Below, piece after piece: positions 51,550-63,171 of a stretch of 64,000 nucleotides of DNA. The translations under genes were made by a program, and so were the position numbers. Origin of the DNA: Butyricicoccus sp. Marseille-Q5471 (GTDB taxonomy: Bacteria > Bacillota > Clostridia > Oscillospirales > Butyricicoccaceae); the NCBI RefSeq assembly GCF_951230135.1, contig NZ_CATNVC010000002.1, forward strand, positions 186,001 through 250,000, read 5' to 3'. The notes under the pieces are model-generated. The model had not been told where the DNA came from. It saw only the letters and a list, made by a program, of their open reading frames with translations, and searched no databases. Positions within the stretch are counted from its first letter, which is position 1, and each line of letters starts with the position of its first letter.

Positions 51550-53280
51550 TCAATCGTCGTACTGGAGCGCGTCGTAACCCTCTGCACCGGTACGGACCTT
51601 GATGACATTTTCCACATCGTAAACGAAGATTTTGCCGTCACCGATGTGTCCGGTGTACAGCACCTTCTTGGCGGTGTCCACCACAAGGCTGACCGGCACC
51701 TTGGATACTACCATCTCCATCTTGAGCTTGGGCAGCAAGGTCACATCGACCTCCGCACCGCGGTAGTACTCGGTGGCGCCCTTCTGCGTGCCGCAGCCGA
51801 TGACATTGGTGACTGTCATGCCGGCAATGCCGATTTCGTTCATGGCGTTTTTCAGTTCCTCAAACTTGGATTGTTTTGTGATGATAACCACCTTGGACAG
51901 CTTGTGTTCGCCGCCCTCGGTCGTAATCTTCATCACCGGAACCGCCTTTTCCACCGCAACCGCGGGCTCGGAGAGCGCATGCTCCTTCGCGGACTTTTCA
52001 CCGGACTTCGTGCCCATAACGCTCGGAACAACGGGCATGAAATCGGCGTAAGCAGAGGTCAGGCCATGTTCCTTGACGTCCAGACCCTGAATTTCCTCAG
52101 CCTCGGTCACGCGCAGACCAATGGTGTGCTTGATGACCTGAAACACGATGGTCATGGTCACGGCAACCCACGCAATGACTGCGGCAACACCGAGAATCTG
52201 GATGCCGAGCATGTGTGCGCCGCCGCCGTAGAACAGGCCTTCGCGTGTGATATCATTGCCGTTGTAGTACGCGAACAGACCGGTCAGAATCGTGCCGCCT
52301 GCGCCGCACAGACCGTGTACACCAACCGCACCGACCGGATCGTCGACCTTGAGCTTCTGGTCAACAAATTCGATGCCAAATACCACGATGAAACCGGCGA
52401 TGATGCCGATTGCAGCCGCACCGGCAGGCGTTACCATATCGCAGCCCGCAGTGATGGCGACCAGACCGGCCAGCGAACCGTTCAGCGTCATCGAAACGTC
52501 AGGCTTCTTGTAGCGAATCCAGGTAATACACATAACGGTAACGGTCGCAACCGCTGCCGCAAGGTTGGTGGTAACAAACACACGCGCTGCGGTTTCGGCT
52601 GCGCCGTCGGACAGCGCAACGGTAGAGCCGCCGTTAAATCCGAACCAGCAGAACCACAGGATAAACACGCCGAGTGCGCCGAGCGTCAGCGAGTGACCGG
52701 GAATCGCGCGCGGCTTGCCATCCTTGGTGTACTTGCCGATGCGGGGGCCGAGAATCGTCGCGCCGACAAACGCCGCAACGCCGCCAACCATATGCACCGC
52801 AGTGGAACCTGCAAAATCATGAAAACCCAGCTCAGAGAGCCAGCCGCCGCCCCAAATCCAGTGACCGGAAACCGGATAGATTAAGGCCGAAATGACCATG
52901 GAATAAATGCAGTAAGACGAGAACTTGGTGCGCTCCGCCATGGCGCCCGATACAATCGTCGCAGCGGTCGCGCAGAACACGGTCTGGAAAATCAGCGTCG
53001 TCCAGTCAAATCCCTCGCCGACAACGCCGTCGGCGAAGAAGTCAAAGCCGCCGAAAAATCCGTTGGCCGATCCGAACATGATGCCAAACCCGATAATCCA
53101 AAAAATCGGCGTGCCGAGCGAAAAATCCATCAGATTCTTCATAATGATGTTGCCCGCGTTCTTGGCACGGGTGAAACCGGTCTCGACCATTGCAAAGCCC
53201 GCCTGCATAAAGAAAACGAGCGCCGCGGCAATCAAGGTCCAGCCTACGTTGACAGAAGATGCCAGTGCTGTGATGTCCAT
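51550..53280 (-). CDS. amt: Ammonium transporter fused to a P-II domain (Amt-GlnB)
   Basis: This 576-residue fusion has an Amt channel (about 1-410, eleven helices) with the signature blocks FQTVFCATAATIVSGAMAERTKFSSY, DFAGSTAVHMVGG, WFGFNGGS and GVHGLCGAGGTILTGLF. A linker (about 410-455) joins it to a full P-II domain (about 460-576) with the T-loop TQKGATEYYRGAEVDVTLLPK and the C-terminal GHIGDGKIFVYDVENVIKVRTGEEG-like end. P-II normally plugs Amt from the cytoplasm according to nitrogen status; here the regulator is tethered. The Tyr51 equivalent of the T-loop is Val511, so uridylylation there is excluded. It lies downstream of glnN on the same strand. Confidence 0.93.
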   Translation of the reverse strand: MDITALASSVNVGWTLIAAALVFFMQAGFAMVETGFTRAKNAGNIIMKNLMDFSLGTPIFWIIGFGIMFGSANGFFGGFDFFADGVVGEGFDWTTLIFQTVFCATAATIVSGAMAERTKFSSYCIYSMVISALIYPVSGHWIWGGGWLSELGFHDFAGSTAVHMVGGVAAFVGATILGPRIGKYTKDGKPRAIPGHSLTLGALGVFILWFCWFGFNGGSTVALSDGAAETAARVFVTTNLAAAVATVTVMCITWIRYKKPDVSMTLNGSLAGLVAITAGCDMVTPAGAAAIGIIAGFIVVFGIEFVDQKLKVDDPVGAVGVHGLCGAGGTILTGLFAYYNGNDITREGLFYGGGAHMLGIQILGVAAVIAWVAVTMTIVFQVIKHTIGLRVTEAEEIQGLDVKEHGLTSAYADFMPVVPSVMGTKSGEKSAKEHALSEPAVAVEKAVPVMKITTEGGEHKLSKVVIITKQSKFEELKNAMNEIGIAGMTVTNVIGCGTQKGATEYYRGAEVDVTLLPKLKMEMVVSKVPVSLVVDTAKKVLYTGHIGDGKIFVYDVENVIKVRTGAEGYDALQYDD

Positions 53281-53304
53281 TGTAAAACCCCCTGAAAATA
53301 AATG

Positions 53305-53354
53305 TGGCGTGTATTTCCGCCGCTCCTTTTCAGGAAACGAGGAAATACACGCCA
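53305..53354 (-). promoter_or_regulatory. Long inverted repeat in the amt leader
   Basis: A perfect 14-bp repeat TGGCGTGTATTTCC/GGAAATACACGCCA with an inner hairpin lies between glnN and amt. The minus-strand tail CATTTATTTT is T-rich but broken. It may be the glnN terminator, an attenuator of amt or a protein site. Confidence 0.55.
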
Positions 53355-53407
53355 TTGTGTATTGTAAACTATTTTACAAACAAGATATTAAGAACCGCCA
53401 ATGTGTG

Positions 53408-55495
53408 TTACACGTAGAACAGGATATCCGAGTAAGTCGGGAACGGCCAGTAGGTCTTGCCGACCTTGGATTCCAGCTTGTCAGCCGGCTCGCGAACCGC
53501 TTCCATTGCAGGAATGACTACGTCATGATAATAGTGCGCGATGTCTTCGGGCGAAGCATCCGGTACGTCGGCAATGCATTTTTCCAGCGCGGTGCACTTG
53601 GTGTACAGAGTATCTGTCAGGGCAGAAATGTCGCTCAGCATGGACTGCTCTGCGCCGCCGGCAATGCCGATTTCCTTCTTATCCTTGACAGCGCCCGCCA
53701 GTTCCTTCTCATACGCAATGCACGCGGGAACGATTTCCTGACGAACCATATCACTCATGGTCAGCGCCTCGATGTGCAGGGTCTTCGCGTACTCTTCGAG
53801 CAGCGTCTCCTCACGGGAATCCATCTCGGTCGGTGTGTATATGCCGTGCTTGACGAACATCTCGACGTTCTTCTCATCCGTGTAGTGCGGCAGTGCAACG
53901 TCGGTCGACTTCCAGTTGAGCAGACCGCGCTTTTCCGCCTCGACTACCCATGCATCGTCATAGCCGTTGCCGTTGAAGATAATGCGCTTGTGCGCCTTAA
54001 TCTCACGCTGCACCAACTTGAGCATCGCTGCCGGGAAGTCCTCTGCGCCCTCCAGCTCATCCGCAAAGACACGCAGCTCTTCTGCAACTGCAGTATTGAG
54101 CATAATGTTTGTGCAGGCGATGTTAAAGGTAGAACCGAGCATACGGAACTCGAACTTGTTGCCGGTAAAGGCAAAGGGCGAGGTACGGTTGCGGTCGGTC
54201 GTATCCTTCGGGATGGACGGCAGAACGGGAACGCCCAGGCTCATCTTGGTCTTGGTCATATCGGTATAATCAGCGCCGGACTCGATTGCGTCGAGAACAG
54301 CCTGCAGCTCGTCGCCGATAAACATGGAAACGATAGCCGGAGGCGCTTCGTTCGCACCCAGACGGTGGTCGTTGCCCGCACTTGCAACCGAGATGCGGAG
54401 CAGATCCTGATACTCATCCACAGCCTTGATAACCGCGGTCAGGAACAGGATGAACTGCGCGTTCTGGCTCGGGCTCTTGCCGGGCTCGAGCAGGTTTTCG
54501 CCCTCATCGGTCGAAAGAGACCAGTTGTTGTGCTTGCCGGAACCATTGACGCCGTCGAACGGCTTCTCGTGCATCAGGCAGATGAAGTCATGCTTCTGCG
54601 CAACGCGCTTCATGACCTCCATGGTCAGCTGGTTGTGGTCGGTTGCAATATTGGTGGTGGTGAACACCGGCGCCATCTCGTGCTGTGCCGGCGCTACCTC
54701 GTTATGCTTGGTCTTGGCAAAGATACCGAGCTTCCACAGCTCCTCATCGAGCTCCTGCATAAAGGCGGCAACGCGGGGGCGGATCGAACCGAAGTAATGA
54801 TCCTCCATCTCCTGACCCTTGGGGGGATTTGCGCCGAACAGCGTGCGGCCGGTGAAAATCAGATCCTTGCGCTGTGCGTAATCATGCTTGTTAATCAGGA
54901 AATACTCCTGCTCGGGGCCGACGGTCGTGGTGATGCGCTTCACATCCTTGCCGAACAGCTTGAGTACGCGGCAGGCCTGCTTGCTGATGGCATCCATCGA
55001 ACGGAGCAGCGGGGTCTTCTTGTCAAGAATCTCGCCGGTGTACGAACAGAATGCGGTCGGAATGTACAAAGAGCCGTCCTTAACGAACGCGTAGCTCGTC
55101 GGGTCCCATGCGGTGTAGCCGCGGGCTTCAAAGGTGGCGCGCAGACCGCCCGAGGGGAAGGAGGATGCGTCCGGCTCGCCCTTGATGAGCTCCTTGCCCG
55201 AGAACTCCATCATAACGCCGCCGTCATCGGTGGGCGAAATGAACGAGTCGTGCTTTTCAGCGGTGATGCCGGTCATCGGCTGGAACCAGTGGGTGTAGTG
55301 GGTTGCACCCTTGCTGACTGCCCAGTCCTTCATCGCGGTGGCCACGACGGCGGCCACATCGGCGTCGATTGCCGTACCCTCGCGCATGGTCTTCTTCAGT
55401 TTCTTGAAGATGTCCTTGGGAAGGCGTTCCTTCATGACGGTCTCGCTAAAGACCATGCTGCCGAACAGCTCGGGGACGTTGCTTGCTGTGCTCAT
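53408..55495 (-). CDS. glnN: Glutamine synthetase type III
   Basis: This 695-residue GSIII (GlnN) makes glutamine from glutamate, ammonia and ATP. GSIII is much longer than GSI. It has the N-terminal GSIII region ([32 protein letters not shown]), the catalytic region with GPEQEYFLI and [16 protein letters not shown] (metal and glutamate ligands), [12 protein letters not shown] (H269-type), [13 protein letters not shown], and the GSIII C-terminal helical extension. The metal-binding glutamates are intact here, unlike in the GSI-like protein at 61005. Its promoter and ANTAR-type leader lie in the divergent region. Confidence 0.96.
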
Positions 55496-55550
55496 AGAAC
55501 GTATCGCTCCTTACTATGTTAATATAAATGGACAACAAAGTGAAATAAAT

Positions 55551-55594
55551 AAAAAACGGCGCTGCGGGTCGTGTTCCCACAGCGCCTTTGCTGT
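55551..55594 (-). promoter_or_regulatory. ANTAR-type hairpin overlapping a terminator in the glnN leader
   Basis: On the minus strand ACAGC-AAAGGC-GCTGT (55579-55594) forms a 5-bp stem with a hexaloop with A at position 1 and G at 4. Its 3' side is shared with a terminator whose arms are GGCGCTG.GGG (55576-55586) and CCCGCAGCGCC (55558-55568), followed by T6 (55551-55556). Binding of an ANTAR protein would favour the first hairpin and let transcription into glnN continue. The predicted transcription start is only about 5 bases upstream. Confidence 0.7.
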
Positions 55595-55605
55595 TTACAC
55601 TCTGA

Positions 55606-55634
55606 ATTATATCCACCGAACCTTTCTTTGTCAA
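55606..55634 (-). promoter_or_regulatory. Promoter of glnN
   Basis: Consensus TTGACA (55629-55634), 17-base spacer, TATAAT (55606-55611) on the minus strand. With a consensus promoter, control would have to occur after initiation. Confidence 0.9.
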
Positions 55635-55755
55635 GTCTCAGCCGCACACTTTTTTTCTTTTTGAAAGATTTATTGCAAGATAGTTAATTTGTATCTATTT
55701 GTCGCCTATCTTTTATGCAACATGCAGAAAATCGTACAATTCGCAATAAATGCGC

Positions 55756-55784
55756 TTGACGGGAACAACCGCCTACTATAAAAT
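55756..55784 (+). promoter_or_regulatory. Promoter of the glutamate synthase operon
   Basis: TTGACG (55756-55761), 17-base spacer, TAAAAT (55779-55784). Confidence 0.8.
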
Positions 55785-55789
55785 GAAAA

Positions 55790-55859
55790 GCGGACAAAGG
55801 CGTCCGCCATAGCTGAGGATTCAGGCATTTCCTCCCTCAGCTATGGCGGGCGCCTTTTT
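55790..55859 (+). promoter_or_regulatory. ANTAR-type hairpin overlapping a terminator in the glutamate synthase leader
   Basis: GCGGAC-AAAGGC-GTCCGC (55790-55807) is a 6-bp hairpin with the same hexaloop as in the glnN leader. Its loop and 3' arm are also the 5' arm of a strong terminator: GGCG-T-CCGCCATAGCTGAGG (55799-55818) pairs with 55835-55854 and is followed by TTTTT. The two structures exclude each other, as needed for ANTAR antitermination. The hairpin starts at or within a few bases of the predicted transcription start. Confidence 0.75.
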
Positions 55860-55967
55860 ATTTTGTTAATGATTCGCGGTGGAAAACATTATAATATAAA
55901 GCATTTCCTACGCGAAGCCCCCGGGCAGGGCAAAAAGCAGCGACCCACATATAAGGAGGAAGCAAGC

Positions 55968-57065
55968 ATGTTACAAAAAGAAGGTCAAGTCCGTATCCCC
56001 GCCGGCTGCGCGATCTCCGGCATCTTCCACAAGGACGGCCAGCGAGAGAACGGCACACGCATCATCGATTCCATCCGCACCATGCACGACCGTTCCAACG
56101 GCCTGGGCGGCGGCTTCGCCGGCTACGGTATTTACCCCGAGTATGCCGACTACTACGCCTTTCATGTGTTCTATGATACGCAGGCGGCAAAGGAAAGCTG
56201 TGAGGCGCAGCTTGAAAAGCACTTCGATATTGTAAACCTTTCGAAGATTCCGACCCGCCGTCATCCCCGCATCACCGATGAGCCGATGATCTGGCGCTAT
56301 TTCGTCTCCCCCCTTAACACCAAGCTGACCGCAAGCCAGCTCGATGAGTGTGAATACGTAGCCCGCTTTGTCATCCGCATCAACCATGAGCTGGACGGCG
56401 CGTACATTTTCTCCTCCGGCAAGAACATGGGCGTGTTCAAGGCCTCCGGCTTTCCGGAGGATGTCGGCGAATATTATATGCTGGAAAACTACGAGGCGTA
56501 CTCGTGGACCTGCCACGGACGCTATCCGACCAACACCCCCGGCTGGTGGGGCGGCGCACACCCGTTCGCGCTGCTCGACACCACGGTGGTACATAACGGC
56601 GAAATCTCCTCTTATGACGCAAACCGCCGCTTCATTGAGATGTTCGGCTATTCCTGCGATTTGCTGACCGATACCGAGGTCATCACCTATATCATCGACT
56701 ACCTCGGCCGCAAGCTGCACCTGACGCTGGAGGAAATCAGCCGCGTCATTGCCGCTCCGTTCTGGTCTACCATTGAAAAGCAGGAACCCGCCGAGCGCGA
56801 ACGCCTGACCTATCTGCGAAACGCCTTTGCGTCGCTGATGGTCACCGGCCCGTTTTCTATCCTCGTCGGCTACGAGGGCGGCCTGATGGCACTCAACGAT
56901 CGTTTGAAGCTGCGCTCGATGGTTGTAGGCGAAAAGGGCGACTCGGTCTACATCGCTTCCGAGGAATGCGCAATCCGCGCAATCGAACCCACGCTTGACA
57001 ACATCTGGGCGCCCCGCGGCGGCGAGGCCGTCATCGTATCCTTAAATGATGGAGGGAACAACTAA
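55968..57065 (+). CDS. Glutamate synthase glutaminase domain protein (class II amidotransferase)
   Basis: This 365-residue class II (Ntn) glutamine amidotransferase supplies ammonia in a split glutamate synthase. The nucleophile Cys is preceded by about 13 residues (RIPAGCAISGIF), so a propeptide must be removed to free the Cys, as in GltB of E. coli. HDRSNGLGGGFAGYGIYPEY and HGRYPTNTPGWWGGAHPF are characteristic of this clostridial/archaeal split type. AAGGAGG precedes ATG at 55968. It is the first gene of the operon after the ANTAR-type leader. Confidence 0.9.
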   Translation: MLQKEGQVRIPAGCAISGIFHKDGQRENGTRIIDSIRTMHDRSNGLGGGFAGYGIYPEYADYYAFHVFYDTQAAKESCEAQLEKHFDIVNLSKIPTRRHPRITDEPMIWRYFVSPLNTKLTASQLDECEYVARFVIRINHELDGAYIFSSGKNMGVFKASGFPEDVGEYYMLENYEAYSWTCHGRYPTNTPGWWGGAHPFALLDTTVVHNGEISSYDANRRFIEMFGYSCDLLTDTEVITYIIDYLGRKLHLTLEEISRVIAAPFWSTIEKQEPAERERLTYLRNAFASLMVTGPFSILVGYEGGLMALNDRLKLRSMVVGEKGDSVYIASEECAIRAIEPTLDNIWAPRGGEAVIVSLNDGGNN

Positions 57066-58570
57066 TGGCTATCGATTTCTTATATCCGGAATATGAGGTC
57101 GTGCGCAATATGGATCGCTGCATTTCCTGCCGCGCCTGCGAACGACAGTGCGCAAACGAAGTGCACAAATATGACCCCGACTTCGGCTACATGACCGCGG
57201 ATGAATCCAAGTGCGTCAACTGCCACCGCTGCGTTTCACTCTGCCCGACGCGCGCACTCAAGATTGTCAAGACCGATCACACCTTTAAGGAAAACGCCAA
57301 CTGGACGGGCAAGGCCATTTCCGAGGTCTACCGACAGGCAGGCACGGGCGGTGTACTGCTGTCCTCGATGGGCAATCCGGAGCCGTTTCCGATTTACTGG
57401 GATAAAATCCTGATTAACGCATCGCAGGTGACCAACCCTTCCATCGACCCGCTGCGTGAGCCGATGGAGACCAAGACTTTCCTCGGCAAGAAGCCCGGCC
57501 ATATTGAGCGTGACGAAAACGGACACATCGTGCCCAATATGACCCCACAGCTCGAGCTGAATGTGCCGATTATGTTCTCCGCAATGAGCTACGGCTCGAT
57601 TTCCTACAACGCGCACGCATCCCTTGCCCGCGCAGCTGTCGAGTTGGGCACCTATTACAACACCGGCGAGGGCGGTCTGCACGAGGATTTCTATCAGTAC
57701 GGCCCGCATACCATTGTGCAGGTTGCATCCGGCCGCTTCGGTGTACATAAGGATTATCTGGAAGCTGGCGCCGCCATCGAAATCAAGATGGGTCAGGGCG
57801 CAAAGCCCGGCATCGGCGGACATCTGCCCGGTCTTAAGGTCGGTCCCGATATCTCCAAGACCCGTATGATTCCGGAAGGCACGGACGCCATCTCCCCCGC
57901 ACCGCACCACGATATTTACTCGATTGAGGATTTGCGTCAGCTGGTCTTTTCGCTCAAGGAAGCAACTGAGTACAAGAAGCCTGTCATGGTCAAAATCGCA
58001 GCCGTGCACAACGTTGCGGCGATTGCGTCCGGCGTTGCCCGCTCGGGCGCGGACGTCATCTGCATCGACGGCTACCGCGGCGGCACGGGCGCGGCTCCGA
58101 CCCGCATCCGCGACAACGTGGGTATTCCGATTGAGCTTGCACTTGCGGCGGTCGACCAGCGTCTGCGCGACGAGGGCATCCGCGATCAGGTTTCGGTGGT
58201 TGTCGGCGGCTCAATCCGCAACTCGGCCGACCTGCTCAAGGCCATCGCGCTCGGTGCGGATGCGTGCTACATCGCAACCTCTGCCCTGCTCGCACTCGGC
58301 TGCCACCTGTGCCGCACCTGCCAGTCCGGCAAGTGCAACTGGGGCATCGCGACCCAGCGTCCCGAGCTGGTCAAGCGGCTCAATCCCGACATCGGCTCTC
58401 AGCGTCTGGTCAACCTCGTCACCGCGTGGGATCATGAGCTCAAAGAGATGATGGGCGGCATGGGCATTAACTCGATCGAGGCACTGCGCGGCAACCGTTT
58501 GATGCTGCGCGGCCTGGGTCTGAACGAAAAAGAGCTTGAGATTCTCGGCATCAAGCACGCGGGCGAATAA
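57065..58570 (+). CDS. Glutamate synthase FMN/Fe-S catalytic subunit with N-terminal ferredoxin domain
   Basis: This 501-residue protein has two N-terminal [4Fe-4S] motifs (CISCRACERQC and CVNCHRCVSLCP) followed by the glutamate synthase FMN-binding TIM barrel. Barrel signatures are MFSAMSYGSISYNAH, GEGGLHEDF, GQGAKPGIGGHLPG, VICIDGYRGGTGAAPTRI and the 3Fe-4S region CHLCRTCQSGKC. It performs the reductive transfer onto 2-oxoglutarate. The stop of the amidotransferase overlaps its ATG by one base. In this split form electrons probably come from ferredoxin or the FAD protein. Confidence 0.94.
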   Translation: MAIDFLYPEYEVVRNMDRCISCRACERQCANEVHKYDPDFGYMTADESKCVNCHRCVSLCPTRALKIVKTDHTFKENANWTGKAISEVYRQAGTGGVLLSSMGNPEPFPIYWDKILINASQVTNPSIDPLREPMETKTFLGKKPGHIERDENGHIVPNMTPQLELNVPIMFSAMSYGSISYNAHASLARAAVELGTYYNTGEGGLHEDFYQYGPHTIVQVASGRFGVHKDYLEAGAAIEIKMGQGAKPGIGGHLPGLKVGPDISKTRMIPEGTDAISPAPHHDIYSIEDLRQLVFSLKEATEYKKPVMVKIAAVHNVAAIASGVARSGADVICIDGYRGGTGAAPTRIRDNVGIPIELALAAVDQRLRDEGIRDQVSVVVGGSIRNSADLLKAIALGADACYIATSALLALGCHLCRTCQSGKCNWGIATQRPELVKRLNPDIGSQRLVNLVTAWDHELKEMMGGMGINSIEALRGNRLMLRGLGLNEKELEILGIKHAGE

Positions 58571-58585
58571 GGAGGAGAATCGGAC

Positions 58586-59014
58586 ATGAAAAGGGTTTAC
58601 GTCAACGAAAAATGGTGTCTCGGCTGCCACCTTTGCGAATATTACTGCGCATTCGCCAATTCGGGCAAGTCGTCGATGGTCAAAGCGCTGCGGGATCATA
58701 AAATCGCGCCCCGCATTAAGATTGAGGAGCGCAACAACATTTCCTTCGCCGTTTCCTGCCGCCACTGTGAGGATCCGCTCTGCGTCAAGGGCTGTATCTC
58801 GGGTGCGCTGACGATCGAAAGCGGCGCGGTACACATTGATTCCGACAAATGTGTCGGCTGCTACACCTGCATCCTGTCCTGCCCCTACGGCGCGTTGTCC
58901 GCAGGTGACACAGGCGCGATTCAGAAGTGCGAGCTGTGCCAGAAAAATTCCCACGGTCAGCCGATGTGCGTTGAGGGTTGTCCCAACAAGGCCATTGTAT
59001 ACGAGGAGAGGTGA
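58586..59014 (+). CDS. Four-cluster ferredoxin-type electron transfer subunit
   Basis: This 142-residue protein is HycB/DmsB-like, with four groups of cysteines: CLGCHLCEYYC, CRHCEDPLCVKGC, CVGCYTCILSCPYG and CELCQKNSHGQPMCVEGCP. It probably ferries electrons between the FAD reductase downstream and the glutamate synthase catalytic subunit upstream. AAGGAGG sits before the ATG, 15 bases after the previous stop. Confidence 0.92.
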   Translation: MKRVYVNEKWCLGCHLCEYYCAFANSGKSSMVKALRDHKIAPRIKIEERNNISFAVSCRHCEDPLCVKGCISGALTIESGAVHIDSDKCVGCYTCILSCPYGALSAGDTGAIQKCELCQKNSHGQPMCVEGCPNKAIVYEER

Positions 59015-59019
59015 ACAAC

Positions 59020-60258
59020 ATGAACTATGTGATTATCGGCAACGGCACCGCCGCCGTCGGCGTGATTGAAGGCATCCGCGTCGTAGATAAAACAAGTCCC
59101 ATTACGGTCATTTCCTCCGAGCCGTATCCCGTGTACGGCCGTCCGCTGATTTCCTATCTGCTGCTCGGCAAAACAACCGAAGAGAAGATGGTTCAGTATC
59201 GCCCGGCCTCCTTTTATGAGGACAACGGCGTAACGGCGATGCTCGGCAAGACCGTTTCCCAAATCGATTCTGCCGCCAAAACCGTGGCGCTGGAAAGCGG
59301 CGAGACCGTCCCCTACGATAAGCTGTGCGTCTGCACCGGCTCGCGCCCCTTCGTCCCACCGATGAACGGTCTGGACGAGGTTGCAAACAAGACCAGCTTT
59401 ATGACGCTCGACGACGCAAAGCACCTTGACACGATGCTGGGTGATGCCAATGACAAGCGCGTGCTGATTGTCGGTGCGGGTCTGATTGGCCTGAAATGTG
59501 CCGAGGGTATCTATCAGCGCGTATCCGAGGTCACTGTAATCGACCTCGCGCCCCGCATCCTGCCCAACGTTTTGACCGAAAAGCCTGCGTCTATTATCCA
59601 GAAGCATATTGAGAGCAAGGGCGTCAAATTTCTGCTTGCGGACAGTGTCGAGCAGTTCACTGCCGATTCCGCTACACTCAAAAGCGGTAAAACGGTCGGG
59701 TTTGACATCCTCGTCGTCGCGGTCGGCGTTCGTCCGAACACCGAGCTTGCCGCCGAGGCAGGCTGCGCCGTCAACCGGGGCATCCTGATTAACGACCATT
59801 CGGCCACCACCGTTGCGGATATTTACGCCGCAGGCGACTGCACCGTCTCCCACGACATCGCGGCCGAGACCGACCGCATCCTCGCCATCCTGCCCAACGC
59901 CTACATGCAGGGCGAAACTGCCGGCATGAACATGGCGGGCGGCGACCGCGGCTTCAACAAGGCCATCCCGATGAACGCCTCCGGCTTCATGGGACTGCAC
60001 ATGATTACCGCCGGTTCTTACGAGGGAGAGGAGTACCTTACCGAAGAAGACGGCAATTACAAGCTTCTCGTCACCAAGGACGACCATTTGAAGGGCTTTA
60101 TCCTGATTGGCGAGGTCGACCGCGCGGGCATTTACACCTCGCTCATCCGCGAGCAGGTGCCGCTGTCCTCGATCGACTTTGACCTCATCCGCGAAAAGCC
60201 GCAGCTGATGGCATTCTCCCGTGCCGAGCGCGCAAAACAGTTAGGAGGCGCACACTGA
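59020..60258 (+). CDS. FAD/NAD(P)-dependent oxidoreductase subunit of split glutamate synthase
   Basis: This 412-residue pyridine-nucleotide-disulfide-oxidoreductase-fold flavoprotein has an N-terminal FAD Rossmann loop (GNGTAAVGVIEGIR), a second loop for NAD(P)H (LIVGAGLIGLKCAEGI), and the FAD-binding AAGDCTVSHDI near the C-terminal half. It replaces the usual GltD and presumably takes electrons from NAD(P)H or feeds them to ferredoxin. The ATG at 59020 has GAGAGG; the longer frame starting at 58978 overlaps the ferredoxin gene and was not used. Confidence 0.9.
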   Translation: MNYVIIGNGTAAVGVIEGIRVVDKTSPITVISSEPYPVYGRPLISYLLLGKTTEEKMVQYRPASFYEDNGVTAMLGKTVSQIDSAAKTVALESGETVPYDKLCVCTGSRPFVPPMNGLDEVANKTSFMTLDDAKHLDTMLGDANDKRVLIVGAGLIGLKCAEGIYQRVSEVTVIDLAPRILPNVLTEKPASIIQKHIESKGVKFLLADSVEQFTADSATLKSGKTVGFDILVVAVGVRPNTELAAEAGCAVNRGILINDHSATTVADIYAAGDCTVSHDIAAETDRILAILPNAYMQGETAGMNMAGGDRGFNKAIPMNASGFMGLHMITAGSYEGEEYLTEEDGNYKLLVTKDDHLKGFILIGEVDRAGIYTSLIREQVPLSSIDFDLIREKPQLMAFSRAERAKQLGGAH

Positions 60259-60980
60259 TGACTGTACAAGCGAATTTGACCTACTATAAGCAGGTAAATG
60301 AAGAGGTCCGTGCGACCGCAGACAAGGAAATTACGGTGGAGCATGTAATCGGCCAGCGTTATCTCGGCTGCGGCTCGACCGGCAAAACCATCACCATTCA
60401 CGGCACGCCGGGCAACGGACTCGGCCAGTATCTCAACGGCTCTACGCTCGAGGTATTCGGCAACGCGCAGGAGGCCGTCGGCGATACGATGAACGACGGC
60501 GACATCATCATCCACGGCAACTGCGGAGACGCCTGCGGCTACGGCATGCGCGGCGGGCGTATCTTTATTGAGGGCAACTGCGGCTACCGCGCCGGTATCC
60601 ACATGAAGGCCTATCAGGATAAAAACCCTGCTGTTATCATCGGCGGCAAGGCAGGCTCCTTCCTCGGCGAGTACCAAGCGGGCGGTCTGATTCTGGTGCT
60701 CGGCATCGGACAGGACGGCGCGTATCCGGTCAACAATTTCTGCGGCACGGGTATGCATGGCGGCAAAATTGTGTTAAGATGTGAGCATATGCCGACCGGC
60801 CTGCCGCGACAGGTGCGCATCAGCGAAGCGACCGAAGCCGATCTGGCCGATATCCGTCCCTATATCAATGACTACTGCAAGCTGTTTGGCGGCGACGCCG
60901 AGGCGCTTGCATCCCAGCGGTTTTTTGTGCTGACGCCCAACCCCGAGGCGGGCTACAAGCAGCTTTACACCTTTAACTGA
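60258..60980 (+). CDS. Glutamate synthase GXGXG-domain subunit
   Basis: This 240-residue protein corresponds to the C-terminal beta-helix domain of GltB. It has the repeated Gly-rich pattern (GNGLGQYLNGSTLEVFGNAQEAVG, MNDGDIIIHGNCGDACGYGMRGGRIFIEGN) of the right-handed beta helix. It contains no catalytic site and stabilises the FMN/Fe-S barrel. Its ATG overlaps the previous stop by one base. Split genes for all domains (glutaminase, barrel, ferredoxin, FAD, GXGXG) make this the archaeal/clostridial type of glutamate synthase. Confidence 0.92.
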   Translation: MTVQANLTYYKQVNEEVRATADKEITVEHVIGQRYLGCGSTGKTITIHGTPGNGLGQYLNGSTLEVFGNAQEAVGDTMNDGDIIIHGNCGDACGYGMRGGRIFIEGNCGYRAGIHMKAYQDKNPAVIIGGKAGSFLGEYQAGGLILVLGIGQDGAYPVNNFCGTGMHGGKIVLRCEHMPTGLPRQVRISEATEADLADIRPYINDYCKLFGGDAEALASQRFFVLTPNPEAGYKQLYTFN

Positions 60981-61004
60981 TCGATTTTGGAAGGAGTTGC
61001 GGCT

Positions 61005-62324
61005 TTGGATTACACCATGAATGAAGTCGTGCAGTTTATCGAGGAAAACGACGTCAAGTTTATCCGGCTGGCGTTCTGCGATATCTTCGGCAACCAGAAA
61101 AACATCGCCATCATGCCCACCGAGCTGCCGCGCGCGTTTGAGCAGGGCATCCACTTCAACGCCGCCGCGCTCAAGGGTTTCCTCAACATCGAGGATTCCG
61201 ACCTTCTGCTCTTCCCCGACCCGGCAACGCTGTCCGTACTGCCGTGGCGGCCTGCGCAGGGTCGTGTTGTGCGGTTCTACTGCGACATCCGCTATCCGAA
61301 CGGCGATCCCTTTGAGGGAGACGGCCGCCACATTCTGCGTCTTGCAATGAAGCGGGCGCGTGCGGCAGGCTATTCGCTGACCATGGGCACGGCGAGTGAG
61401 TTTTATCTCTTTGAGCAGGACGACAACGGACACCCTACTATCATCCCGCACGACCATGGCGAGTATTTCGATATCGCACCGCTTGACAAGGGCGAAAACG
61501 TGCGCCGCCAAATCTGCCTGACACTTGAGGAAATGGGCATTCAGCCCGAATCCTCGCACCATGAGCAGGGCCCCGGCCAGCACGAAATTGACTTCCGCTA
61601 CGCCGATGTGATGGAGGCCGCAGACAATTTTGTGACCTTTAAGTCGGTTGTCAAATCGATGGCAAGCGCGAGCGGCCTATACGCTTCGTTCCTCCCCAAA
61701 CCCCTGCCGGACGCGCCGGGCAGCGGCCTACACCTGAGCATTTCACTCCACAAAAACGGCAAGAACGTTTTCCTGCCCTCGTTCGATGAATCCGAGGATG
61801 GGCGGCACTTTGTCGCCGGCATTCTCCGCCGTGCCGCGGAAATGACAATTTTCGGAAATCCGCTGACCAACTCCTATTCGCGTTTGGGCGAATATGAAGC
61901 GCCCAAGTATATCACCTGGTCACATCAGAACCGCTCTCCGCTCATCGTCATCCCACTAACGGCGGCGGGTACGCCCAACCGCCTCAAGGTGCGCGCGCTG
62001 GATGGCTGCATCAATCCTTATATCATTTTTGCGCTGCTCATTCATGCAGGCCTTGATGGCATTGAACAGAAAACCGTGCTCGCCCCCGCGTGCGATGTCA
62101 ATCTCTTCACCGCACCGGATGACGTGCGCGAACGCTATCAGGCGCTTCCCGTTTCGCTCTGCGAAGCAATCAAATGTGCTTCCGGCAGCGAATTTATCTC
62201 CGGCATTCTGCCCGAAAAGACCCGGAACAGCTTCTTTGCCTCCAAGCAGACCGAGCACGACCTCCTAGCCACGGCTGACGATCAGCTTTCCGCCGAACGC
62301 ATTCTCTATTTCGAGCGGTATTGA
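61005..62324 (+). CDS. GSI-like glutamine synthetase family protein with altered metal site
   Basis: This 439-residue protein has GSI length and fold: the beta-grasp domain with IRLAFCDIFGNQKN and a catalytic domain with HHEQGPGQHEID (E187, E194), GSGLHLSISL (H243) and NRSPLI. Compared with the family, G-x-E-x-E-F reads GTASEF (Ala130 replaces E129), R-x-E-x-R reads RLKVR (Lys328 replaces E357), and NRSxLIRxP has Val315 for Arg. Two of three n2-metal ligands are thus lost. It may be a poor or inactive enzyme, or a regulatory protein. TTG start at 61005 with AAGGAG eight bases before. It follows glutamate synthase and precedes the ANTAR regulator. Confidence 0.9.
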   Translation: MDYTMNEVVQFIEENDVKFIRLAFCDIFGNQKNIAIMPTELPRAFEQGIHFNAAALKGFLNIEDSDLLLFPDPATLSVLPWRPAQGRVVRFYCDIRYPNGDPFEGDGRHILRLAMKRARAAGYSLTMGTASEFYLFEQDDNGHPTIIPHDHGEYFDIAPLDKGENVRRQICLTLEEMGIQPESSHHEQGPGQHEIDFRYADVMEAADNFVTFKSVVKSMASASGLYASFLPKPLPDAPGSGLHLSISLHKNGKNVFLPSFDESEDGRHFVAGILRRAAEMTIFGNPLTNSYSRLGEYEAPKYITWSHQNRSPLIVIPLTAAGTPNRLKVRALDGCINPYIIFALLIHAGLDGIEQKTVLAPACDVNLFTAPDDVRERYQALPVSLCEAIKCASGSEFISGILPEKTRNSFFASKQTEHDLLATADDQLSAERILYFERY

Positions 62325-62366: not shown

Positions 62367-62939
62367 TTGGAACGAGTTTTAATCGTATCCTCCACAGAGA
62401 AATCGCACACCATGCTTGCACAGTTTTTAACGGCCTGCGGCGTGCAGGCGCAGACCCTTTCCGCCCTTTCGGGCGCGGAGGCACGCCGCATTCTGGTCGA
62501 GCAGGAATATGACCTCATTCTCATCAACGCGCCCCTGCCCGATGAATTCGGCCACGAGCTGGCACAGACCGCGGCGCAGGACAGTCTGGCGGGTGTGATG
62601 ATTATTGTGAAGGCGGAAATGAGCGACGCGGTCGCTGAACGGGTTGAAGACGACGGCGTGTTCGTCATTCCGAAGCCACTGAACCGCGCCCTGTTTTTGC
62701 AGGCGCTGCGCATGACCCGCGCTTCCCGCTCACGGCTGACCGGCCTGCAGAGCGAAAACCGCAAGCTGCTGAAGCGTATTGAGGATATTCGCCTGGTTGA
62801 CCGGGCAAAATGTATTTTGATTGAGTGCTGTGCCATGACCGAGCCCGAGGCGCACGCTTACATTGAAAAGAGGGCAATGGACAGCCGGCTAACCAAGCGG
62901 CAGGTCGCCGAAGAAATCCTGAACACCCACGAGGAGTAA
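62367..62939 (+). CDS. ANTAR-domain RNA-binding antiterminator with pseudo-receiver (NitR-like)
   Basis: This 190-residue regulator has an N-terminal receiver-like fold (about 1-115), but the acidic pair is Ser (LIVSST) and the phospho-Asp is Asn54 (DLILINAPLPD), so it cannot be phosphorylated normally. A coiled linker (about 110-130) leads to a C-terminal ANTAR domain (about 125-186) with LIECCAMTEPEAHAYIEKRAMDSR, the three-helix RNA-binding fold. ANTAR proteins bind hexaloop hairpins and prevent termination. The hairpins in the glnN and glutamate synthase leaders fit as targets. A similar gene, nitR, lies near glnA in clostridia. TTG start at 62367 with AAAGGAGG. Confidence 0.9.
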   Translation: MERVLIVSSTEKSHTMLAQFLTACGVQAQTLSALSGAEARRILVEQEYDLILINAPLPDEFGHELAQTAAQDSLAGVMIIVKAEMSDAVAERVEDDGVFVIPKPLNRALFLQALRMTRASRSRLTGLQSENRKLLKRIEDIRLVDRAKCILIECCAMTEPEAHAYIEKRAMDSRLTKRQVAEEILNTHEE

Positions 62940-62942
62940 AAG

Positions 62943-62976
62943 ACAGGGCAAAGCATGCGGCCTTTGCCCTGTTTTC
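62943..62976 (+). terminator. Intrinsic terminator after the ANTAR regulator gene
   Basis: ACAGGGCAAAG/CTTTGCCCTGT stem with an 8-base loop, then TTTTC and more T. Confidence 0.9.
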
Positions 62977-63068
62977 TTATTTTTGTTTTCCGTTGTATTT
63001 TATAAATATTCTCCGTCAATTTGGTCAGAATGGACGATATAGAGCGTTTTTGTACCCCGATGTTCGGC

Positions 63069-63097: not shown

Positions 63098-63171
63098 GAT
63101 ACTGTATGAGTCGGATTCCGTCAAGATTCCGTCTCATATGCCATTTTTTGTATATTAAGGAGTGATTGCGC

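Follow-up and report, generated by a model that had tools for sequence, protein, structure and literature searches.

A 64,000-nucleotide stretch of the Butyricicoccus sp. Marseille-Q5471 genome (contig NZ_CATNVC010000002.1, positions 186,001 to 250,000; referred to here as the window) contains three transcription leaders of one form, which precede the type III glutamine synthetase (GSIII) gene glnN, the glutamate synthase (glt) operon and an ammonium transporter gene fused to a PII domain (amt-PII). Each leader carries a short hairpin that overlaps an intrinsic terminator and has a hexanucleotide loop whose first base is A and whose fourth base is G (A1/G4). From their sequences, the leaders probably represent a variant of ANTAR antitermination that lacks the upstream recruitment hairpin (P1) of described systems, is independent of phosphorylation and controls nitrogen assimilation; binding by the ANTAR protein encoded at the end of the glt operon and the ensuing readthrough are predicted. 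The anatomy of the leaders, their conservation and covariation, the mutually exclusive pairing of hairpin and terminator, the co-occurrence with the ANTAR gene and the absence of P1 are observed directly.

In the proposed mechanism, each leader would function as a transcription attenuator with one protein-stabilized antiterminator hairpin, and RNA polymerase would start within a few bases of that hairpin. By default, loop bases 4–6 and the 3′ arm would pair with a downstream segment to form the terminator. The ANTAR protein (62367–62939), presumably active at low nitrogen, would bind the A1/G4 hexaloop as a dimer and hold the hairpin, and the polymerase would then read into glnN, the glt operon, amt-PII and probably an Lrp/AsnC gene; P1 would not be used. 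The location of the ANTAR gene within its own target operon would provide positive feedback. The phosphorylation site of the receiver domain has been lost and the activity of the protein must therefore be set in another way, for which the glutamine synthetase (GS)-like neighbour would be the best candidate by analogy with AmiC–AmiR and NasS–NasT.

Leader anatomy and covariation

The glnN and glt units are divergent and have a common intergenic region at 55.5–56.0 kb (Table 1). The initial annotation had proposed that both transcripts open with an AAAGGC hairpin within about 5 nucleotides (nt) of the predicted start, and the sequence confirms this: the stems are 5–6 bp long and lie at that distance from +1, with transcription starts predicted from the promoter consensus. 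Its further proposal, that the loop and 3′ arm double as the 5′ arm of a terminator, is borne out by the folds, in which the loop GGC (bases 4–6) and the hairpin 3′ arm make up the terminator 5′ arm in both leaders. The terminators have fold energies of −24.8 kcal/mol (z −5.0) for glnN and −47.2 kcal/mol (z −7.7) for glt, and the hairpins folded alone have −5.4 and −9.8 kcal/mol, respectively. A third leader of the same form lies downstream of glnN, ahead of amt-PII, so that A1/G4 hexaloops are present in all three window leaders (AAAGGC, AAAGGC and AATGGC). A probable fourth leader outside the window (G000:C3:65329; model E value 0.18) has the loop AAAGGA and a terminator ahead of an Lrp/AsnC gene. 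The earlier interpretation is partly supported, being right in direction and incomplete: it does not mention the adjacent GS-like gene, the lost phosphorylation site or the two leaders ahead of amt-PII and the Lrp/AsnC gene. No match to any of 4227 Rfam families was obtained over the window at the gathering score; sub-threshold matches in 53200–56000 were rejected as chance-like, most of them lying on the long terminator helices.

The hexaloop class is strongly enriched over chance. In 79 loci (the window and 78 loci encoding relatives of its ANTAR protein; 1.35 Mb, both strands), hexaloop hairpins with a stem of at least 5 bp that overlap a terminator number 65 for A1/G4, whereas every other position-1/4 class (15 in all) has 0–5. 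The A1/G4 figure includes one place in L006 twice, and loops with pairable end bases are skipped. Leaders were also chosen by homology only, with no terminator criterion, and searched for a hairpin with a stem of at least 4 bp within 20 nt of a promoter; a leader was included if the N-terminus of its gene (query residue 12 or lower) was in the locus, and type I GS (GSI) genes within the glt operon were left out. An A1/G4 hairpin was found beside the promoter in 37/37 glt, 32/37 GSIII, 13/32 standalone GSI and 1/10 amt leaders, compared with 3, 5, 4 and 0 for the best other loop class and with shuffle means of 1.66 (maximum 5), 2.1 (maximum 6), 1.64 and 0.04, respectively. The first leader scan skipped loops with pairable ends (e.g. 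AAAGGT), which accounts for some misses among the leaders. A promoter of the required score is absent in six of the ten amt leaders, probably because the site is intergenic and read from glnN; hairpin and terminator are present in all ten.

Of 84 hairpin-bearing leaders, 58 were eligible for alignment once duplicates, amt leaders, leaders with a promoter score below 10 and those with a gap of more than 13 nt had been excluded, and 57 were aligned (the L078 GSI leader was omitted). The loop consensus is A-A-N-G-[G/A]-C, with AA at the start in 57/57 leaders and an invariant closing C-G pair. Covariation of the stem in homologous leaders, on which the initial annotation had staked its interpretation in advance, was found: five of the six stem pairs change on both sides. 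Cells with changes on both sides number 89, versus a mean of 25.3 in shuffled alignments (0/500 reached the observed value) and a maximum of 20 in slid controls. The proportion of paired cells is 88.9% in the stem versus 27.7–47.1% in slid controls, a percentage biased by the choice of rows for having a hairpin; the glt count of 37/37 is free of that choice. All 84 leaders had been chosen for their terminator overlap; of the 474 bases in their hairpin 3′ arms, 447 are also paired in the terminator, and the two structures are therefore mutually exclusive.

It is highly improbable that the hairpin arises incidentally from a constitutive terminator or serves to stabilize the 5′ end, with no regulated antitermination in either case. 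Part of its conservation does follow from terminator pairing, as the 3′ arm is common to both structures, but the 5′ arm is unnecessary for the terminator and yet covaries with the 3′ arm, the AA loop opening is uniform across the alignment, and polymerase would presumably need some bypass to reach a gene separated from its promoter by a constitutive terminator. At one locus, L195 (G008:C202:15500-16113), the glnN promoter–hairpin–terminator leader is tandemly duplicated, giving two attenuators in series.

A single hairpin in place of two

ANTAR attenuators have been described as pairs of hexaloop hairpins in tandem, P1 and P2, with a short linker between them (PMC3369931). In the EutV system, induction falls upon removal of P1, disruption of P2 or a change of A1 or G4 in either loop, and the length of the linker between the hairpins matters (PMC3369931). 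A later survey retains the dual-hairpin definition (PMC8164766, in part), and the EutV–RNA structure redefined the minimal site as one hexaloop, with P1 as a recruitment hairpin that is still required for antitermination (PMC8934654, in part). The same source urges that single sites be studied both bioinformatically and by experiment. No single-hairpin ANTAR attenuator is described in the literature as far as titles and abstract openings of mostly open-access articles, supplements aside, indicate.

None of the three window leaders has an upstream A1/G4 hexaloop with a stem of at least 4 bp, and for this reason we do not place them in the dual-hexaloop RNA family. The claim of the initial annotation that they resemble known ANTAR targets holds for the A1/G4 hexaloop and the terminator overlap and does not extend to the number of hairpins, which is one and not two. 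In 32 of 35 glt leaders a promoter scoring at least 9 of 12 ends 5–8 nt ahead of the stem, and 23 of 25 GSIII leaders have a promoter of at least 9, each ending within 13 nt of the stem; most leaders of both types consequently have no room for P1. An upstream A1/G4 hexaloop (stem at least 3 bp, within 60 nt) is present in 4/35 glt, 2/25 GSIII and 0/10 amt leaders; the means for the other 15 loop classes are 3.27, 3.73 and 0.80, which places A1/G4 at background. A second A1/G4 hexaloop downstream shows no excess either (3/84 leaders versus 2–7 for other classes).

These leaders might instead be ordinary dual-hairpin ANTAR targets in which transcription also starts further upstream and P1 was missed. 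The described target family is dual, and P1-like hexaloops with a stem of at least 4 bp do occur in 4/84 leaders. The clearest of these dual-looking leaders is that of the L074 GSIII gene (CGGCC-AACGGA-GGCCG followed by GCGGC-AAAGGC-GTCGC), possibly an ancestral two-hairpin form. The scanner was tried on the eut region of the same genome as a positive control for dual sites, which failed: over 60 kb of contig C6 around eutV it returned few dual-like matches (three, then one), at a chance-like level, and the absence of P1 therefore rests on a scanner that has no known dual leader behind it. Against this explanation stand the background level of upstream hexaloops in glt, GSIII and amt leaders, from which the standalone GSI leaders are excepted (3/14 versus 1.20), the good promoters that end directly ahead of the glt stems and the lack of a downstream excess. 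We therefore regard a missed P1 as very unlikely and retain the single-hairpin reading.

The ANTAR protein, its GS-like neighbour and their distribution

The ANTAR protein of the window has its best named relatives in Agathobaculum (Butyricicoccaceae), with 69–73% identity. The PF03861 ANTAR domain is matched at residues 133–185 with 54.9 bits (cut-off 27.3), and profile A2 of the protein family matches 1s8n (Rv1626-type) and EutV (6wsh) over nearly their full length. The receiver domain has Asn at the phosphorylation site and Ser-Ser in place of the acidic pair; among 75 proteins, 74 retain neither residue of the acidic pair and 72 lack the phospho-Asp, which is Asn in 67. The positions that correspond by alignment to the EutV RNA contacts Lys149 (K149) and Glu160 (E160) show no variation across the 75 proteins. 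Besides the window protein, one other ANTAR match is present in the genome, an EutV-like protein followed by an EutW-like kinase (both named by resemblance).

The immediate upstream neighbour of the ANTAR gene is GSI-like in 70 of 74 loci and a GSIII gene in three of the other four; the set leaves out L077–L080, which have no ANTAR match at 1e-15. The window protein scores 368.1 bits, below the TIGR00653 (GlnA) cut-off of 429.15, and its alignment with 8s59 reveals the changes D50N, S53A, E129A, N264P and E357K at positions which we take, in number and role, to be catalytic or metal ligands. In the window and nine Agathobaculum loci D50, E129, N264 and E357 are lost, as is S53 in some. AmiC is known to hold AmiR. 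By analogy with this pair and with NasS, which holds NasT (PMC3795266, in part), we propose that the ANTAR protein is held by the GSI-like protein, which would act as a glutamine sensor.

A covariance model of promoter and hairpin was run on 87 genomes of the family. Where the window-type ANTAR gene is present, 49 of 51 genomes have a match within 300 nt upstream of GSIII; where it is absent, 0 of 21 do. These counts cover 72 of 74 GSIII genomes (G079 and G082, in which the GSIII N-terminus is missing, were left out), with G035 counted as ANTAR-bearing though only its receiver half is visible and G067 as lacking the window-type gene despite two other PF03861 matches. Nine of the ten genomes with two GSIII copies have a match at only one copy, and the GSIII leaders of nine genomes without the window-type gene contain an A1/G4 hairpin with terminator in 0/9. 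At the order level (157 genomes; ANTAR called by profile A2 at E ≤ 1e-20), motif and ANTAR occur together in 71, neither in 61, ANTAR only in 14 and the motif only in 11, i.e. 132 concordant versus 25 discordant genomes; as the profile includes an EutV row, some of the 85 ANTAR genomes may hold EutV-like proteins only.

Several observations weigh against control of single hairpins by this protein. P1 deletion abolished induction in the EutV system (PMC3369931), and NasR binds P2 alone weakly, with an affinity of about 12 µM (PMC7496416, in part). The standalone GSI leaders are both weaker in the A1/G4 hairpin and exceptional in their upstream hexaloops, as given above. Further pair types in the aligned stems number 13 versus 13.2 in shuffled alignments, with no excess (351/500 shuffles reached it). 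The EutV Tyr164 and Arg168 positions, mapped by alignment, are His and Glu, respectively, in 75/75 proteins; Tyr164 stacks on G4 in EutV (PMC8934654, in part), and RNA recognition is consequently related to that of EutV and not identical. For the sensor, of 70 GSI-like proteins (the L044 GSI was too short to be included) 56 retain D50, 58 E129 and 59 E357; losses are fewer outside Agathobaculum, and the idea of a dead GS is accordingly weaker there. The N264 change also occurs in one control GS unlinked to ANTAR (L224); of the three intended controls, L222 yielded no row and L223 was read in a wrong frame, and L219 and L220 were likewise misread. In the distribution data, 14/85 ANTAR genomes have no motif match and the genomes are related, so that the co-occurrence counts are not independent. 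Perfect single A1/G4 hexaloops with terminators precede purA in G052 and G053 (L167; L143, minus strand, about 1512), two species of one genus in which no ANTAR domain above noise was detected, apart from one 12.9-bit fragment in G053; Pfam confirms the purA identity in G052. Outside the family, hairpin and terminator are found in G091 (purB-like), G108 (asnB-like, GSIII), G165 (purA-like) and G163 (gene unnamed), and a hairpin with no recognized terminator in G101 (asnA-like), the gene names in G091, G101, G108 and G165 being read from translations. None of these five genomes has an A2-profile match at E ≤ 1e-20, other ANTAR types not having been searched there.

The genomes with the motif only, of which six of 11 were inspected (G053, G091, G101, G108, G163 and G165), are the main sign that the reader of the hairpin may not always be the window-type ANTAR protein. 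They favour an explanation in which the hairpin is a regulatory antiterminator read by another RNA-binding factor, with ANTAR only genetically linked or one of several readers: purA leaders are conserved in a genus with no detected ANTAR protein, and G091, G108, G163 and G165 add cases with no A2-profile match. This explanation is nevertheless unlikely, given that the loop class is the known ANTAR A1/G4 signature, that the split of GSIII leaders and the order-level concordance follow the ANTAR gene and that this gene is located inside a regulated operon; the motif-only genomes may also hold diverged, other-type or unassembled ANTAR genes. Among family genomes without the window-type gene, 3 of 11 model matches (E ≤ 0.1) have hairpin and terminator: the two purA leaders and a glt leader in G082, on a 5.6-kb contig that stops short of the expected place of the ANTAR gene. 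In comparative terms, the link to the ANTAR protein drawn by the initial annotation has good support from loop identity, covariation, terminator overlap and gene co-occurrence, and is weakened by the motif-only genomes.

Related systems, further targets and genes of the window

Neither AmiR nor NasT depends on phosphorylation; each is governed by a partner protein that serves as the sensor. The NasR–nasF and AmiR–amiE systems resemble the window in the ANTAR attenuation of nitrogen genes; the candidate sensor here is GS-like, in contrast to AmiC and NasS in the AmiR and NasT systems. The NasR–nasF and AmiR–amiE targets are described as dual hairpins (PMC3369931), whereas single hairpins are found here. 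The eut leaders of Enterococcus faecalis share with the window leaders a receiver–coil–ANTAR protein, an A1/G4 hexaloop and, in their second hexaloop, the overlap with an intrinsic terminator. They differ in having two hexaloops, both needed (PMC3369931), where the window leaders have a lone hairpin at about +1. EutV also depends on phosphorylation for its activation, for which nearly all window-type proteins lack the acidic pair and the phospho-Asp. The single-hexaloop minimal site also assigns one hexaloop to each ANTAR dimer (PMC8934654, in part); here, the single hairpins lie within transcription attenuators. Predicted ANTAR regulons of Desulfotomaculum and others include glutamate and glutamine synthases, ammonium transporters and PII (PMC3369931), target functions similar to those of the window leaders, although they were found with a dual-hairpin covariance model (PMC3369931). 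ANTAR regulons are probably under-counted, because such models would miss single sites. In Clostridium thermocellum, Clo1313_2030-2036 is a glutamate synthase cluster similar to the window operon and contains an ANTAR gene, suggested to encode an ammonia-sensitive antiterminator; the accessible part of that report does not describe an RNA element (PMC4676874, in part).

This clade makes it directly testable whether an ANTAR protein can cause antitermination from one hexaloop, as it offers natural single-hairpin attenuators on nitrogen-assimilation genes, and one genome alone contains four candidate leaders together with the protein that matches them. It also suggests a concrete control circuit for GS and glutamate synthase, with a candidate sensor, in Agathobaculum, Butyricicoccus and related gut Clostridia.

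Inspection of 30 further model matches in the family, a few of them at glt or GSI genes, found hairpin and terminator in 18 of the 20 that come from genomes carrying the window-type ANTAR gene and in 2 of the 10 that come from genomes lacking it. Of 22 matches at E ≤ 10 in the genome of the window, seven were inspected (two window leaders and L145–L149). Lrp/AsnC genes have hairpin and terminator in this genome, G017, G023, G050 and G051 (Pfam was run on two of the five), as have LuxR-type regulators in G039, G040 and G042 (Pfam was run on one). Other targets with a terminator encode a SAICAR synthetase (G003), a class I/II aminotransferase (G016) and a PPDK_N protein (G037). A wider scheme can be offered only tentatively, as a doubtful extension: the leaders may belong to a separate Clostridia ANTAR branch without P1, in which a phosphorylation-independent dimer would capture a single hexaloop at about +1 to +20 and a decayed GS neighbour would sense glutamine and set ANTAR availability. 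Its regulon would comprise ammonium uptake, GS and glutamate synthase and Lrp, would extend to purine and asparagine synthesis in some lineages, and might include short orphan hairpin–terminator RNAs as decoys that titrate the protein.

At four loci in one genus (L179, L182, L183 and L185, in G034, G037, G038 and G039, respectively), a promoter, A1/G4 hexaloop and terminator are followed by no same-strand open reading frame of at least 120 residues starting within 700 nt downstream. Such short RNAs could act as decoys that draw off the ANTAR protein, a role that has been discussed for EutX/rli55.

Table 1. Positions of leader elements and genes in the window
Feature	Position	Strand	Details
Predicted sigma70-type glnN promoter	55606..55634	-	−35 TTGACA (55634–55629), 17-nt spacer, −10 TATAAT (55611–55606)
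glnN single hexaloop hairpin, P2-like	55579..55594	-	ACAGC (55594–55590), loop AAAGGC (55589–55584), GCTGT (55583–55579); 11 nt past −10, about +5
glnN intrinsic terminator	55551..55586	-	Shares loop bases 4–6 and hairpin 3′ arm; helix 55586–55558, then U6 (55556–55551)
Predicted sigma70-type promoter, glt operon	55756..55784	+	−35 TTGACG (55756–55761), −10 TATAAA (55777–55782) or TAAAAT (55779–55784)
glt single hexaloop hairpin, P2-like	55790..55807	+	GCGGAC (55790–55795), loop AAAGGC (55796–55801), GTCCGC (55802–55807); about +1
glt intrinsic terminator	55799..55859	+	Shares loop bases 4–6 and hairpin 3′ arm; GGC at 55799 through 55854, then U5
amt-PII single hexaloop hairpin	53344..53363	-	AATACAC-AATGGC-GTGTATT (53363–53344)
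amt-PII intrinsic terminator	53296..53354	-	Overlaps hairpin
amt-PII	51550..53280	-	Ammonium transporter fused to C-terminal PII domain
glnN	53408..55495	-	Type III glutamine synthetase
Glutamate synthase	55968..58570	+	Class-II amidotransferase 55968–57065, GltS domain 57065–58570
Ferredoxin-like, FAD/NAD oxidoreductase and GXGXG genes	58586..60980	+	glt operon
GSI-like protein	60987..62324	+	Altered active-site positions; directly upstream of ANTAR gene; candidate sensor
Pseudo-receiver and ANTAR protein	62367..62939	+	Proposed hairpin reader

The glt operon is ordered amidotransferase, GltS, ferredoxin, FAD oxidoreductase, GXGXG, GSI-like and, last, receiver–ANTAR. Directly 3′ of the ANTAR gene, a terminator-like inverted repeat at 62943–62979 (ACAGGGCAAAG...CTTTGCCCTGT, then TTTTC) probably ends the operon ahead of the next gene at 63166.
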